This document shows positions 2,427 to 36,742 of a stretch of DNA of 36,742 nt, piece after piece. The notes under the pieces are model-generated. The model worked only from the letters and a program-made list of their open reading frames with translations, was not told where the DNA came from and ran no database searches. Each line of letters starts with the position of its first letter. The stretch's first letter is position 1. Origin of the DNA: a virus; the IMG/VR virus record IMGVR_UViG_3300045996_001829, positions 1 to 36,742 of that record; one strand, 5' to 3'. Made by a program: the position numbers and the translations under genes.

Positions 2427-3983
2427 ATGCCACGGATTAAACCGTACGAACAACAGATTACGAGTCAAGGGGACTTCCCGACGCGAGGCGCGAACCCGTC
2501 CGACTTTGGGGGACCGGGGATGGTCAACGCCGGAACCGGGGTGCAAAACCTCGCGGCCGATGGCTTTCAGATTCAGCGGTTCTTGCTGGCGAATAAATCG
2601 CGGCAGGAAGTGACCGACGCCGAGACGGGCCTCCTGAGATTGGCTGCGGATACTGAGCAAGAACTGATGGCCCGCTATAAAGCGTGGAAGCCGGGGGATC
2701 CGTCGTTGGCGGAATCCTATCAAGGGATCATCAAACAGCGGCTCGATAACTTCGGCTACACGGAAGACGGCACGGAGAAGTACGAGACGCAAGCGGGCAA
2801 CCATGCGTTTCGCACCGGGGCCGAACGGCTATCCGCCCAAGCCCTCAAACACGCTTCACAGCTTGACGCGGATCTGGCCGGCAAAGCGGCCGTCCTCCAA
2901 TACAACGAGACGGTGGCGAAGCAAGGGAACTTCTTGCAAGCCCACCCGAATTTCTACGAACTCCGCAAAGAAGAATTCGGCTCGATCATCGACAATCCGT
3001 ACGGCGTGTATAGCACGATCCCCGGTGTCGAGCGCGAGAAGCTCAGACAAGAAGGCACGGCCGCACTCGCGTATGCTGCGGCCCAAGGGCATATCCGCCG
3101 AGCCCCTCACGTCATGCTCGAGAAGTTTCGTGATCCCGCGTTGGCTCAAGACGAACAATATGGGTGGATGACGCGCGATATTCCGGCGAGCAAGTTCGAT
3201 GATTTGATCCGACAGGCCAACACCGAAGCCCACGCCCTCGAGACTGAACAAGCGCGGATTGAAGCGGAACGGAAGCGCCAAGCGATCGAACTTTCTCGCG
3301 CGAAAGAAACGGAGTTGGTCGAGAAACTCCTGTTGCACCAGCAAGACCCTAAGCACAATCCCGCGATGACGTCGGGGGATGTGCTGGAAGCACTGGACGG
3401 CGGGATGGACGGGGAAAAAGGCTTGACGATGTGGCGCCTCCTCGAAGCCCAAGCCAAGGAAGATCCCTATAAGCCGGTCCATACAAATCCGGCCGTGGAA
3501 AACATGCTGTTCAAGCGCATCCATCTTCCGGATAACGACCCGAGAAAGATCATCGAGTTGGATGAGGTCATTAAGCATAAGTCCCAACTGAGTTGGTCCT
3601 CGTTCAACTATCTGAAGCAAGAGATCATCGACAACCGCTCCCCAGAGGGCAGCGTCTTCAACAAAGAGAAAGCGGAATTCTATAAAGCCTACGAGCAACA
3701 AGTCCTCAAACCAGGACCGTTCGGGATCTACGCGGACCCGACAAACGGTGGTCATTGGCTGCGCTTCAAGGCAGATACGGAAGAGGCGATCAAACACATT
3801 CGCAAAGAGGGGGGCAATGCTCGGGACGTGTTCAATCCCAAGAGCCAACATTTCAGAGGCTCGAAAGAAGTGTTGAGTCAGTACACGGCGACCGGCTTCG
3901 GGTCAACCGAAACATCATCGGCCCCGGCCAAACCCCCGGCTGAACGGAAATCACTCGATAGCATCTTTGGAGTCAAACAGTGA
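2427..3983 (+). CDS. Internal virion protein (gp15-like position)
   Basis: The 518-residue product is predominantly helical and charged, with a Glu/Arg/Lys-rich coiled-coil-like region around residues 270-300 (ETEQARIEAERKRQAIELSR). No enzymatic motif is visible. Position and size fit the middle-sized ejection protein of podoviruses, although sequence alone does not prove homology with T7 gp15. The stop overlaps the GTG start of the next gene (GTGA), indicating translational coupling and a joint role in the internal core. Confidence 0.6.
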   Translation: MPRIKPYEQQITSQGDFPTRGANPSDFGGPGMVNAGTGVQNLAADGFQIQRFLLANKSRQEVTDAETGLLRLAADTEQELMARYKAWKPGDPSLAESYQGIIKQRLDNFGYTEDGTEKYETQAGNHAFRTGAERLSAQALKHASQLDADLAGKAAVLQYNETVAKQGNFLQAHPNFYELRKEEFGSIIDNPYGVYSTIPGVEREKLRQEGTAALAYAAAQGHIRRAPHVMLEKFRDPALAQDEQYGWMTRDIPASKFDDLIRQANTEAHALETEQARIEAERKRQAIELSRAKETELVEKLLLHQQDPKHNPAMTSGDVLEALDGGMDGEKGLTMWRLLEAQAKEDPYKPVHTNPAVENMLFKRIHLPDNDPRKIIELDEVIKHKSQLSWSSFNYLKQEIIDNRSPEGSVFNKEKAEFYKAYEQQVLKPGPFGIYADPTNGGHWLRFKADTEEAIKHIRKEGGNARDVFNPKSQHFRGSKEVLSQYTATGFGSTETSSAPAKPPAERKSLDSIFGVKQ

Positions 3984-15321: not shown

Positions 15322-16362
15322 ATGGGTAATCACCCACTCTCGCCCGAACTCTGTCAGCAAACCTTAGAGGCTTTAGCTAGGTATAAATCGGAAGCCGAAG
15401 CCGCGAAACAACTCGGGATCCCGCGCACCACCTTTCAAACACGGCTCCGAAGCGCACGGCTGCAGGAAGGACAAACCGCGAGCAAGCACATCCCCGAATT
15501 CGAATACACCCCGCTGCCGTCCCCGAGTTTGCCGATCGAGGAGTTGGTGGAACATCGGATCAAGATGTTCGATTACAAGCGGGCGTACGAAGATGCACGC
15601 CGGCTGATCAAGGTGAAGGTCCACATCGATGGCCCTATAGGGATCTGGCACTTTGGCGATCCCCACGTCGACGATGACGGGACCGACTTGAAAGCGATCA
15701 AAGACCACACCGAAATTATCCGCTCGACACCAGGGGTATTTGGGGCGAATGTGGGAGATACGACCAACAACTGGACGGGACGGCTCGCACGGCTCTATTC
15801 CCAACAAGCCACCAGCGCCAAACAAGCCTGGGACTTAGCCGAGTGGTTTCTTCGCCGGGTCGACTGGCTCTATTTGATCGGGGGCAACCACGATGCGTGG
15901 AGTGGGGACGGCGATCCCATTCGGTGGATTCAAGCAGGAGGCACGGCCCCCTACGCCCCGTCAGAAATCCGTCTGGAACTCGTATTCCCCAACGGTAATA
16001 CGTGTCGGGTAAACGCACGGCATGACTTTAACGGGCATTCGCAATACAACCCGGCACACGGCCCGATGAAGGCTACAATTTTTGGGGTTCGAGATCACAT
16101 CTCCATCGCGGGTCACAAGCATATCTCCGGTCACGGGGTCTTGAAAAACCCGGATGACGGTGCGCTTTGTCATTCGTTCCTCGTCGCCAGTTATAAGGTG
16201 TACGACCGTTATGCGTTAGAAAAAGGCTTCCGGGATCAGCACATTTCACCGGGGGTCTTCACGATTATCGATCCACGGTTGCCCAATACGGATCCGGATT
16301 TTGTGTCTCACTTTTGGGGGCTGGAACGGGGCGTTCAGATGCTCCGCTATCTGCGGGGGTGA
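15322..16362 (+). CDS. Calcineurin-like metallophosphoesterase with N-terminal HTH
   Basis: The product has 346 residues; the start at 15322 follows AAGGAG. Residues 14-46 form a helix-turn-helix (LEALARYKSEAEAAKQLGIPR-type). The rest is a metallophosphoesterase with every metal motif present: GDPH (Asp113, His115), GD at 145-146, GNHD at 188-191, His234, and AGHKH at 263-267. Such enzymes cut phosphodiesters, for example in nucleic acids or nucleotides. The HTH suggests DNA binding, so a DNA nuclease or a substrate-targeted phosphatase is possible. It is the last late gene and overlaps the opposing minus-strand gene by 98 bases. Confidence 0.85.
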   Translation: MGNHPLSPELCQQTLEALARYKSEAEAAKQLGIPRTTFQTRLRSARLQEGQTASKHIPEFEYTPLPSPSLPIEELVEHRIKMFDYKRAYEDARRLIKVKVHIDGPIGIWHFGDPHVDDDGTDLKAIKDHTEIIRSTPGVFGANVGDTTNNWTGRLARLYSQQATSAKQAWDLAEWFLRRVDWLYLIGGNHDAWSGDGDPIRWIQAGGTAPYAPSEIRLELVFPNGNTCRVNARHDFNGHSQYNPAHGPMKATIFGVRDHISIAGHKHISGHGVLKNPDDGALCHSFLVASYKVYDRYALEKGFRDQHISPGVFTIIDPRLPNTDPDFVSHFWGLERGVQMLRYLRG

Positions 16363-29219: not shown

Positions 29220-29410
29220 GGGTTCGTTTCCCTTTCGTGGATCATTTCTCGAATGGTGAGTTGCTGTTCGAGATCACGGACTCGGGCTTCGAGGGTGCGA
29301 ATCTTCTCCACTTGCTGAGTGCTGATCGTTTGCATGTGCCGGATGTGAGCCCCGAGGGTACTGACTTCGATCTCTAAGTCATGTATTCGACGATCCGGTG
29401 TTTCGTTCAC
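29216..29410 (-). CDS. Small coiled-coil protein
   Basis: A 64-residue product starting with GTG overlapping the previous stop (GTGA). Almost the whole chain is a heptad pattern (IHDLEIEVSTLGAHI, then QQVEKIRTLEARVRDLEQQL). It probably forms a dimeric coiled coil. Function unknown. Confidence 0.6.
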   Translation of the reverse strand: MNETPDRRIHDLEIEVSTLGAHIRHMQTISTQQVEKIRTLEARVRDLEQQLTIREMIHERETNP

Positions 29411-29679
29411 GGTGCCGTATCCTCCGGAGTCAGAATAATGCCTTGCATCCTCGCGGCCTCTTTAATTCCCGGCCACATCGCCGCCGGCACCAAGCCATCC
29501 GTCCCGCCCTCTTCGCGGCAATAGGTCCACCGGTAAATGTTGGCCGGGTGCCGGTGATAGCTTTTCTTTTGCAGATCCGCCAAACAGACCGAGAAGTTCT
29601 TCACGCCCCCAAATTTATTGATGATGCGTTGCGCCTGGGTCGACATCGGCCGGCCGTCTGGGGGGAGATGGGAGGTCAT
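29407..29679 (-). CDS. Small helix-turn-helix protein (carph-isopro-like)
   Basis: A 90-residue product. The order of helices AQRIINKFGGVKNFSVCLADL...HPANIYRWTY...GLVPAAMWPGIKEAARMQGI resembles the small Cro-like HTH often labelled carph-isopro domain. It therefore is a candidate transcription regulator of the early genes. It has ATGA overlaps with the gene before and after. Confidence 0.6.
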   Translation of the reverse strand: MTSHLPPDGRPMSTQAQRIINKFGGVKNFSVCLADLQKKSYHRHPANIYRWTYCREEGGTDGLVPAAMWPGIKEAARMQGIILTPEDTAP

Positions 29680-30419: not shown

Positions 30420-30449
30420 CTTATAACAACTCTACTCTGGGGTTGTCAA
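30420..30449 (-). promoter_or_regulatory. Sigma-70 type promoter P1
   Basis: On the minus strand: TTGACA (30449-30444), 17 bases, TTATAA (30426-30421) or TATAAG with 18 bases. It lies in the 3' end of the previous gene and about 45 bases before the next start codon, and would drive the replication arm. Confidence 0.7.
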
Positions 30450-30800
30450 GGGGTTTTGCGAGGAACGTAAAAATATTTTTTGATAGTCGGCGTTGAGGGC
30501 CTTGAGCTGGGCGGACAGGCCCTTGGTCACGGTGCGTCGTGATCGTCGTTCTGGGGCCCAGTGTGACGCATTATGTACGTCTTCTGGGCAGGTAGGCCGG
30601 GTATAGCCTTTGATCCGCATCCGGCAGATCCGGCCGAGCGTGATCATCTGGTCCAGGTGGTAGGCCAAGACCGTGGTTGAGTAGGTCGTGCCCCGAGCCG
30701 CGAGTTGCATCTGGATTTGCCCGACGTGTCGGTAATCGGGGAAGGCGGGCACACACTCGAGCAAGGCGCGTCGAAGCTGGGTGCGCTGATCGCGGGTCAT
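30432..30800 (-). CDS. Putative winged-helix DNA-binding protein
   Basis: The product has 122 residues; ATG 30800 is preceded by AAGGGGG. Residues 1-65 have a winged-helix-like pattern (DQRTQLRRALLECVPAFPDYRHVGQIQMQLAARG-type helices, then YSTTVLAYHLDQMITLGRICRMRIKGY). The basic C-terminus (ERRSRRTVTKG) could contact DNA. It is probably an early regulator. Its ATG overlaps the preceding stop. The prediction is by pattern only. Confidence 0.55.
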   Translation of the reverse strand: MTRDQRTQLRRALLECVPAFPDYRHVGQIQMQLAARGTTYSTTVLAYHLDQMITLGRICRMRIKGYTRPTCPEDVHNASHWAPERRSRRTVTKGLSAQLKALNADYQKIFLRSSQNPLTTPE

Positions 30801-31039
30801 CGCTCGCCCCCTTCAGTCGCACGGGCATACCCCCCGCCCCAGACCACCACGGTCGGATCGGCCAGAAGGACTTCGTGCATCTGCCGGCCAATTTCCCTCG
30901 TGGGGACCGATTGCCCACTGGTCTGACGCAACCCCCGTCTGAGTTCTCTGATCGTGATAAAGGCGGGCAGGACTGGAATGAGGGTGGATAACCGCCGTTG
31001 GACCCACAAGGATCGGGCGGTTCGTTCGGTTTTCGTCAC
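30797..31039 (-). CDS. Small putative DNA-binding protein
   Basis: An 80-residue product. GTG 31039 is preferred over GTG 31048 because AAGGGGG lies 8 bases before it. The sequence is basic with a helical pattern like a winged helix (RSLWVQRRLSTLIPVLPAFITIRELRRGLRQTSG, then REIGRQMHEVLL). It lies first behind promoter P2 and overlaps the next gene (ATGA). It may be a paralogue in fold of the following gene. Confidence 0.5.
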   Translation of the reverse strand: MTKTERTARSLWVQRRLSTLIPVLPAFITIRELRRGLRQTSGQSVPTREIGRQMHEVLLADPTVVVWGGGYARATEGGER

Positions 31040-31071
31040 GGCGCTCACCCCCTTCAGATGAATTTTCCGGT

Positions 31072-34790: not shown

Positions 34791-34957
34791 GCTGTTTTCC
34801 TCCTCTTGTTTTCTCTCCGTTCGTTGATTGCAACCTGCGCGTAATACAAGGCGCGTTCTTTTGACCCTAATGGTGGACCCCAAATTTCTTTCTTGCCATT
34901 GTCATGCTTGATTGCTGGCTGATACGTTTCGCCTTCTTTTGTATAGGTGGGTTTCAT
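34787..34957 (-). CDS. Small basic hypothetical protein
   Basis: A 56-residue product with ATGA overlaps at both ends. It has a Gly/Pro turn (KEIWGPPLGSKERALYYAQVA) and a very basic C-terminus (NERRENKRRKTA), suggesting contact with nucleic acid. Function unknown. Confidence 0.6.
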   Translation of the reverse strand: MKPTYTKEGETYQPAIKHDNGKKEIWGPPLGSKERALYYAQVAINERRENKRRKTA

Positions 34958-35220
34958 ATTTCAACCTCTTCCGCTGGCTCTAAACAATCGTCAGTGCATC
35001 CGACGCCCGAGTCCGTGAAGTCTTCGCCTTCGTATTCTGGGAATGTGGGAGTGAATAACGCAGCAATGAGGAACCAGGGGAGAATACACTTAATAGTTTT
35101 TCTCCCTGTTGCCTTGCGGTGGTTTTCACGCACACACTTTCCACACACTACGCCTAGAAAAATCTCCGCTCCTAATTCTTTCCCGCATTGCAAGCACTTT
35201 GTTTTGAGTATGTCTCCCAT
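34954..35220 (-). CDS. Zinc-ribbon membrane protein, first gene of the right-hand operon
   Basis: An 88-residue product with AGGAGGA before the ATG. CLQC (9-12) and CGKC (26-29) form an N-terminal zinc ribbon, followed by a membrane helix (about 45-58, CILPWFLIAALFTP) and an acidic tail with two further cysteines. The layout suggests a membrane-attached cytoplasmic zinc domain. Function unknown. Confidence 0.65.
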   Translation of the reverse strand: MGDILKTKCLQCGKELGAEIFLGVVCGKCVRENHRKATGRKTIKCILPWFLIAALFTPTFPEYEGEDFTDSGVGCTDDCLEPAEEVEI

Positions 35221-35262
35221 GTGTTTCCTCCTGGTTAGTGGTGAATTGCCCTGTCAAGGTGA

Positions 35263-35290
35263 AAGATAGCATTTGTTACGATAAACGCAA
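35263..35290 (-). promoter_or_regulatory. Promoter candidate for the right-hand minus-strand operon
   Basis: On the minus strand: TTGCGT (35290-35285), 16 bases, TATCTT (35268-35263). It is a moderate sigma-70 match about 45 bases before the start at 35220. Confidence 0.35.
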
Positions 35291-35300
35291 GAATTTTAAT
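35273..35300 (+). promoter_or_regulatory. Promoter candidate for the terminase genes
   Basis: TTGTTA (35273-35278), 16 bases, TTTAAT (35295-35300), overlapping the opposing promoter candidate. The predicted transcript start is just before the TGYRCA array. Confidence 0.35.
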
Positions 35301-35310
35301 GGAGCATTTT

Positions 35311-35357
35311 TGTACACCGTTGCACAAAAGTGTGCATTTGCTGTACATTTCTGTACA
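35311..35357. repeat. Array of five TGYRCA hexamers with one-turn spacing
   Basis: TGTACA at 35311, TGCACA at 35321, TGTGCA at 35331, TGTACA at 35342 and TGTACA at 35352. Successive starts are 10, 10, 11 and 10 bases apart. Three copies are perfect palindromes TGTACA; the two others are TGCACA and TGTGCA. The final A is the first base of the small terminase ATG. It is probably an operator or terminase-binding array. Confidence 0.7.
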
Positions 35358-35806
35358 TGAAAGACCTGACCGCTAGCTTCTCATTCCCACCCGAGTTCTT
35401 AGAGCTTTACAATGTAGAGGCAGCATTCGCTTCGGCTCTTGCCGGTGGAACGCTGAAACAAATAGCAAGTGAAATGGGGATGCCTCTACGCTCATTCATG
35501 CGATTGCGTTTCAACAATGCCTCTTTCAAACAGGCATTGGATCACGCGCGTGAAGAGGGAAGAGAAGCGATACATGACGGCATTAGGTCCATTGTCGATG
35601 AGAATGCGCACCTCAGTCCTCAACTGGTGAAGATCAAGAGTGATAATGACATCTGGTTCTTGAAGACATCGGACCCCGTGAAATACGGCGACCGTGTATT
35701 GGTTCAGAAGGAAGACATCAATCTGAAAGACGCACTCTCACAAGCTCGAACCCGCGTCATTGAACACACCCCAAAAGAGTCAAATAACCCCTTCGAAGAT
35801 ACCTAG
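35357..35806 (+). CDS. Terminase small subunit
   Basis: A 149-residue product. Residues 20-60 are an HTH-like region (VEAAFASALAGGTLKQIASEMGMPLRSFMRL), and about 85-115 carry KIKSDNDIWFLKTSDPVKYGDRV, the pattern of a small terminase family (helix, then PxKYGD). It binds the packaging site and recruits the large subunit. ATG 35357 is chosen over GTG 35330. Neither has a Shine-Dalgarno sequence, because the operator array fills the leader. Confidence 0.75.
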   Translation: MKDLTASFSFPPEFLELYNVEAAFASALAGGTLKQIASEMGMPLRSFMRLRFNNASFKQALDHAREEGREAIHDGIRSIVDENAHLSPQLVKIKSDNDIWFLKTSDPVKYGDRVLVQKEDINLKDALSQARTRVIEHTPKESNNPFEDT

Positions 35807-35823
35807 GCATACAACCTGTAGTG

Positions 35824-35832
35824 TTATCCACA
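35824..35832 (+). promoter_or_regulatory. DnaA box match
   Basis: TTATCCACA is the consensus bacterial DnaA box. It lies in the loop and right arm of a 6-bp hairpin (35814-35835). A single match could be chance. Confidence 0.4.
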
Positions 35833-35951
35833 GGTGATAATTCGTGAGTGTAAGGATATCAATGACTTACATGACCGATAAGAGGTATTATGTAAACTCT
35901 TAACTTGCTAGCATTGATAGCATTTCAAGCTAGGAGTCCCAAAAATAGACC

Positions 35952-35972
35952 GGGGTGGCGGGTGGGGTGGGG
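35952..35972 (+). other. Potential G-quadruplex
   Basis: Four G-runs (GGGG, GGG, GGGG, GGGG) with loops of 4, 1 and 1 bases, which meets the usual G4 pattern. Confidence 0.55.
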
Positions 35973-36129
35973 TCGGATTCGGCCGGCCGATCGTAGCCAC
36001 GCGGTACCTTTGCACTAGCTAGGTATTATTTTCTAATTATTTTTTATTTTTTGAAAAATGATATACAATCGCAGCTTGATGGTTTTCTAGCTCTGCTTTC
36101 CATATCAAAAAAGCCGAGCAAACCAACCG

Positions 36130-36742
36130 ATGGCGCAATCATCCACACGCCGAGAAGACGAAGAAGCCCTCATCCGTGATCTCCATTCTCCGGAGATCCG
36201 CGATAATCCCTACAATTTTGTGATGTATGCGTACCCCTGGGGCGTGCCAGGTACCCCGCTCGAGCATTACCCCGGCCCCCGGACGTGGCAGAAACAAGAC
36301 CTACGGGAAATTGCCGAGCATATCCAAAAACAGAAAAACGCGATCGACTTAAAAATACACCCGAGCATGTGGCAAAAGGCCACCGCATCCGGCCGTGGTC
36401 CTGGCAAATCTGCCTTAGTCTCCTGGCTCGTAGACTGGATGATGACGACGCGCATCGGGTCCACCACGATCGTGACCGCGAACACCGAGACGCAGTTAAA
36501 ATCGAGAACCTTTGCGGAAATCGGGAAGTGGACATCCTTGCTCATCAACGCCCACTGGTTCGAAACGACCGTCCTGGCGATGCGTCCCGCGCCCTGGTTT
36601 GCCGAATTGGTCAAAAAGCAACTCAAGATCGATACGCAGTATTACTATGCCCAAGGCCAACTCTGGTCAGAGGAGAACCCCGATGCCTTTGCTGGAGTCC
36701 ATAATCCGTTGGGTGTGCAAGTCATCATGGATGAAGCCAGTG
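36130..36742 (+). CDS. Terminase large subunit, 3' truncated by the window
   Basis: The frame is open from ATG 36130 to the right edge (204 codons visible). An N-terminal helical region (residues 8-75) is followed by Walker A ASGRGPGKSA (about 86-95) and a motif TIVTANTETQ. At the edge is a Walker B-like VQVIMDEAS (about 196-204). This is the packaging ATPase; the nuclease half lies outside. There is no obvious Shine-Dalgarno site before the start. Confidence 0.85.
   Translation, partial: MAQSSTRREDEEALIRDLHSPEIRDNPYNFVMYAYPWGVPGTPLEHYPGPRTWQKQDLREIAEHIQKQKNAIDLKIHPSMWQKATASGRGPGKSALVSWLVDWMMTTRIGSTTIVTANTETQLKSRTFAEIGKWTSLLINAHWFETTVLAMRPAPWFAELVKKQLKIDTQYYYAQGQLWSEENPDAFAGVHNPLGVQVIMDEAS

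Follow-up and report, generated by a model that had tools for sequence, protein, structure and literature searches.

A phased array of TGYRCA palindromes at the small terminase start of an uncultured phage, a possible operator for a symmetric DNA-binding dimer

Introduction

Directly ahead of a small terminase gene (terS), the virus record IMGVR_UViG_3300045996_001829 carries five TGYRCA hexamers spaced about one helical turn apart. The record, hereafter the window, is linear, has 36,742 bases, was analysed at full length and ends within the large terminase gene (terL). Which protein would read such an array, and for what? The initial annotation, made from the letters of the sequence, had offered a cooperative binding array for a regulator switching between the two gene arms, or a site recognised by the small terminase, which would then also regulate its own gene. 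The choice between TerS and a separate dimer matters for understanding how TerS locates its DNA, a question that the available text of a 2022 review describes as still elusive and controversial (PMC9611059).

Results

Five palindromic hexamers overlap the terS start codon

The hexamers were recovered by sequence match, with no strand assigned, as TGTACA (35311-35316), TGCACA (35321-35326), TGTGCA (35331-35336), TGTACA (35342-35347) and TGTACA (35352-35357). Their start-to-start steps are 10, 10, 11 and 10 bases, so all five lie on one helical face, and the final A of the array, at 35357, is at the same time the first base of the terS start codon (ATG). The positions, the phasing and the overlap with the start codon described by the initial annotation were thus all reproduced from the coordinates.

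The array is real and far from chance. TGYRCA is scarcer in the window than expected (25 observed, 34 expected), and the longest chain with 10/11-base steps reached three sites in 200 simulated windows searched for all palindrome classes, compared with five in the actual window. By an order-1 estimate, about 4e-10 five-site TGYRCA chains are expected in the window, or 2.5e-7 across 64 palindrome classes. One-mismatch hexamers did not extend the array in phase, and the window held no second cluster of at least four sites even when one mismatch per site was allowed. Since the four spacers (ccgt, aaag, tttgc and tttc) all differ, the array is not a decayed tandem repeat, and this origin was rejected. 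A near-identical copy (99.9% over 3,078 bases) is present on an independent contig of 8,213 bases.

Genes and promoters around the array

The plus-strand gene at 35357-35806 is an Sf6-type small terminase, as had been proposed. Its product matches PF20901 (41.2 bits, E 1.9e-10, cut-off 27), is assigned to phrog_1482 and has Sf6 gp1 as its best match among PDB sequences (E 4e-12); Sf6 gp1 was also at the top of a fold search with the structure model (pLDDT 83), although weakly (E 0.013-0.05). The terL gene, also on the plus strand, begins at 36130 and is interrupted by the window end at 36741; it is full-length in the records L002/L016. Shine-Dalgarno sequences are absent at terS (35357) and terL (36130), and AGGAG-like ones occur at many other window genes. 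By eye, relatives too seem to have none at terL. On the other side of the array, the minus-strand operon is led by a gene at 34954-35220 with a good Shine-Dalgarno sequence, whose 88-aa product shows CxxC pairs by eye and gave no family match. The minus-strand genes of the window include a DNA polymerase, an exonuclease and a helicase.

A divergent sigma-70-type promoter lies on the minus strand at 35264-35291 (TTGCGT-N16-TATCTT, with TGC preceding the -10 as in an extended -10) and aligns with TTGACA-N16-TATACT in the relatives L032 and L029. Downstream of it, the leader of the minus-strand operon (35220-35260) contains a conserved TTGACAGGGC...CACTAACC stretch that is also seen in L019 and L032. 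For terS, no plus-strand promoter candidate upstream of the gene passes the usual test. The best are TTGTTA-N16-TTTAAT and TGCACA-N17-TACATT, the latter within the array, where its weak candidate -10 (TACATT, 35344-35349) is partly overlapped by the fourth hexamer; if this -10 were used, the mRNA would begin approximately at the ATG and the operator would cover both the -10 and the start. The notion of a divergent control region holds for the conserved minus-strand promoter and lacks a convincing terS promoter on the plus strand. Of the two arms between which a switch had been proposed, only that of terS is directly overlapped by the array; transcription from the minus-strand promoter is estimated to start about 54-100 bases away.

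The array is absent in distant relatives, which carry another common element

The window TerL used as a query returned 28 related loci. Except for the near-identical contig, no TerS-bearing relative has a cluster of at least three TGYRCA sites in its terminase region; one (L014) has a loose cluster with spacings of 18 and 17, located 4 kb off that region. When 14 regions were tested for phased similar hexamers without a preset motif, the window alone was significant, and none of the 13 distant TerS-bearing relatives in that set has a phased array. The TerS proteins of these relatives are only about 24-35% identical to that of the window (in an alignment that left out L024 and L014), and the sequence of the close relative L017 (TerL 98%, available TerS part 72%) ends before the array region, so non-conservation is shown only at long distance. 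For the initial annotation, relatives that keep the gene and lack the hexamers would, together with no binding by any phage protein, have refuted its proposal; at that distance, the first part is what we found. Searches for close relatives with TerS and with a minus-operon protein returned only the same near-identical contig, conservation in the TerS alignment was nowhere high enough to provide a search query, and the window DNA gave no similarity match to named phages.

In the gap between terS and terL, a stretch with 17-23 G in 30 precedes an A/T tract by 75-90 bases. In the window this element occupies 35947-36050, the sole window site with at least 19 G (or C) in 30. It was seen in 13 other loci (L017, L019, L021, L022, L024, L025, L027, L029, L030, L032, L033, L034 and L037, with L032 and L033 identical across the compared stretch) and has a common layout in the alignment; it was not seen in L012, and the gap of L014 is too short for it. 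Between the window and L017 the element is almost identical, with diverged flanks. It could serve as a packaging (cos/pac) site, as a late promoter or as an origin. The same gap also contains, at 35824-35832, a perfect DnaA-box-like TTATCCACA, which is not preserved in L017.

Phased arrays recur upstream of terL

Among 2.9 million viral contigs, four-site TGYRCA patterns with three different leading hexamers gave 9, 14 and 12 overlapping stretches, and control palindromes gave 5 and 11; at such similar rates, the mere occurrence of phased arrays does not set TGYRCA apart. The TGTACA-led pattern gave 32 stretches in a genome collection, many of them perfect tandem decamers. With these counts and the similarly frequent controls in viral contigs, we rejected the idea that TGYRCA arrays are a widespread dedicated system.

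The array was located 510-880 bases upstream of TerL in five of 11 independent TGYRCA contigs, window excluded (1.3 expected, P 0.003), in a post hoc test that was devised after the pattern had been noticed and in which short contigs supply much of the expectation. The window array is about 0.8 kb from TerL. Non-tandem control palindromes were at that distance in two of nine cases (0.5 expected, P 0.09), and all non-tandem arrays pooled gave 7/20 (1.85 expected, P 0.0007). The test used only rows with TerL, which excluded L004, L005, L009, L011, L123, L132, L133, L136, L137, L117 and L119, and left out duplicates (L007, L116, L135, L129, L076 and L080); L121 and L112 are two arrays on one contig, and the TerL of L127 was recognised separately, not through the two TerL family searches. 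The TerS families beside TGYRCA arrays are phrog_51 (L006 and L125), 606 (L124) and 1206 (L130, weak). Next to the L127 array, in which hexamer orientation alternates strictly, TerL alone was recognised.

Several other arrays were noted. The viral contig L005 has a perfect 36-base palindrome of four TGYRCA at 10-base steps (3130-3165), which resembles a promoter operator. L079 and L076 each have several arrays of CAYRTG, in which as many as nine sites follow one another at 10-11 base steps and the spacers are dissimilar; they are distant from TerL in L079, and no TerL was found in L076. In a whole-genome de novo scan for phased arrays, epsilon15 had none and PaP3 (L139) a single run of three, CTTAAG at 11-base steps (1443-1470), about 510 bases upstream of terS. 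PaP3 also has a pair of CTTAAG 11 bases apart preceding orf19 (16330-16346).

TGYRCA arrays adjoin Phd/YefM genes elsewhere

TGTACA palindromes have an established reader in the Phd/YefM antitoxin family. According to the available parts of the studies, the YefM and Axe operators have two TGTACA palindromes, 12 bp apart, that overlap the promoter (PMC7730913, PMC4803016). The window array is like these YefM-YoeB and Axe-Txe operators in having multiple TGTACA palindromes (three, in addition to TGCACA and TGTGCA) on one helical face over a promoter and gene start. It differs in having five sites at 10-11 bp, rather than two at 12 bp, and in being followed by terS rather than by an antitoxin gene; no Phd/YefM, RHH_1 or Phd-like protein was found in the window, which is a fragment of the phage.

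In two bacterial loci, 10-bp TGYRCA arrays of four and six sites precede Phd/YefM domains by 19 (L062) and 21 bases (L066), respectively. Across the 73 array loci, which contain 9,330 ORFs, these two were the only strong Phd/YefM matches, and the L062 domain passes the Pfam cut-off; a weak match (E 0.015) in L063 lies 459 bases from its own array. In the phage L006, an ORF that starts within a TGTACA x5 array, with TerS and TerL downstream, was Phd-like by profile comparison (64%, ranking next among the 239 neighbouring ORFs compared), and the array of this phage probably directly abuts a Phd/YefM-type gene. A Pfam search recognised nothing in this ORF, and its structure model (pLDDT 43) was not used for fold comparison. 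In a set of 30 Phd/YefM genes drawn from five genomes, such an array accompanies that of L062 itself and no other, and a phased array as a generic trait of Phd operators was rejected.

Discussion

We consider the array to be an operator that controls terS and is bound by a two-fold symmetric DNA-binding dimer of a Phd/YefM-like recognition class, with a probability of about one half. The array differs from chance and its dissimilar spacers leave no tandem ancestry. A symmetric dimer suits it because the palindromic hexamers occur in both orientations, in strict alternation in L127. TGTACA is the core of the YefM and Axe operators in the parts of those studies available, similar arrays adjoin Phd/YefM genes in the two bacterial loci and a Phd-like ORF in L006, and they recur upstream of TerL; all of this argues for the operator. 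We infer that one dimer would bind each TGYRCA, one per helical turn, and that contacts between adjacent dimers would make binding cooperative along a single DNA face. Bound dimers would cover the terS 5' region and start codon, and the packaging genes would stay silent as long as the regulator is neither removed nor diluted. In its recognition class the dimer would be most like Phd/YefM antitoxin-type repressors, which have a TGTACA core in paired or arrayed sites at a gene start, and the binder may come from the missing part of the phage, the host, a resident prophage or a minus-strand operon gene whose product went unrecognised. Of the two proposals in the initial annotation, the cooperative regulator array is the better supported, by the operator-like position, the symmetric sites, the dissimilar spacers and the neighbouring Phd/YefM-type genes elsewhere; the binding itself is predicted. 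An operator in this place also has a precedent. Epsilon15, whose TerL is related to that of the window phage, has an annotated lysogeny repressor site at 12-27, about 20 bases before terS at 47; its operators differ in being single 16-17 bp palindromes (ATTACC...GGTAAT), found also at other promoters, with no phased array. Against an operator of this class stand the window itself, with no Phd/YefM-type gene, a spacing other than 12 bp and no strong terS promoter, as well as the single array among 30 Phd/YefM genes, the L006 ORF that Pfam does not recognise, the 13 distant relatives without an array and the post hoc nature of the distance test.

The array could instead be the recognition site of TerS (pac or cosB-like) and its autoregulatory operator, with a ring of helix-turn-helix domains wrapping the DNA and touching it once per turn. 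We regard this as possible but rather unlikely. TerS is the adjacent DNA-binding protein, and the array, unique in the window, overlaps the terS start and recurs beside terminase genes elsewhere. The small terminase of SPP1 reportedly represses itself. The SPP1 pac, as described in the available text, spans the terS promoters, RBS and start, has repeats and is bound by TerS (PMC6316719, PMC4737164, PMC4856287), and the helix-turn-helix domains in TerS rings are about one turn of B-DNA apart (PMC4737164). The SPP1 repeats are direct, however, and not palindromic hexamers, and the domains of a ring would share one orientation, whereas each TGYRCA site has two-fold symmetry and, in L127, the orientation changes strictly from one site to the next. 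In addition, the DNA-binding domains of the SF6 type are described as having little sequence preference (PMC4737164, PMC9611059). The relatives of the window phage, with TerS proteins as distant as noted above, lack the array and have another element in common, and this G-rich and A/T element between terS and terL would be the likelier and more natural packaging signal. The autoregulator proposal keeps the SPP1 precedent and loses conservation at long distance.

It is improbable, in our view, that a helix-turn-helix protein encoded in the window (the Cro-like 29407-29679, or the small proteins 30432-30800 and 30797-31048) binds as two monomers on neighbouring hexamers 10 bp apart. Monomers of Cro-like dimers are spaced by about 10 bp, which fits the array, the 29407-29679 protein is similar to the carph-isopro family (E 3.6e-5, short of the family cut-off), and close to the array of L125 an XRE-like ORF can be read by eye; the gene 29407-29679 itself has no such array, though, and the two small proteins match no family. 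It is very improbable that the hexamers, rather than being protein sites, form a hairpin (in RNA or as a cruciform) where terS begins, or an attenuator. A short stem there was flagged as terminator-like and the predicted fold pairs hexamers, but the folding energy is ordinary (z -0.67), and complementarity ends at the hexamer edges and leaves the fifth hexamer unpaired.

A wider reading is that phased palindromic-hexamer arrays are a recurrent, convergent form of control at the terminase loci of unrelated tailed phages, and that Phd/YefM-type antitoxins read the TGYRCA kind, which would put packaging genes under a toxin-antitoxin repressor of the host or a prophage. We consider this doubtful and offer it as speculation. 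In the portions of papers available to a literature search, none dealt with TGTACA sites at a terminase or linked Phd/YefM antitoxin operators to a prophage terminase. That such arrays recur 500-900 bases upstream of terL next to TerS proteins of unrelated families suggests a general design. If the array is indeed the operator of a symmetric dimer, it would represent a compact late-gene switch in an uncultured phage group.
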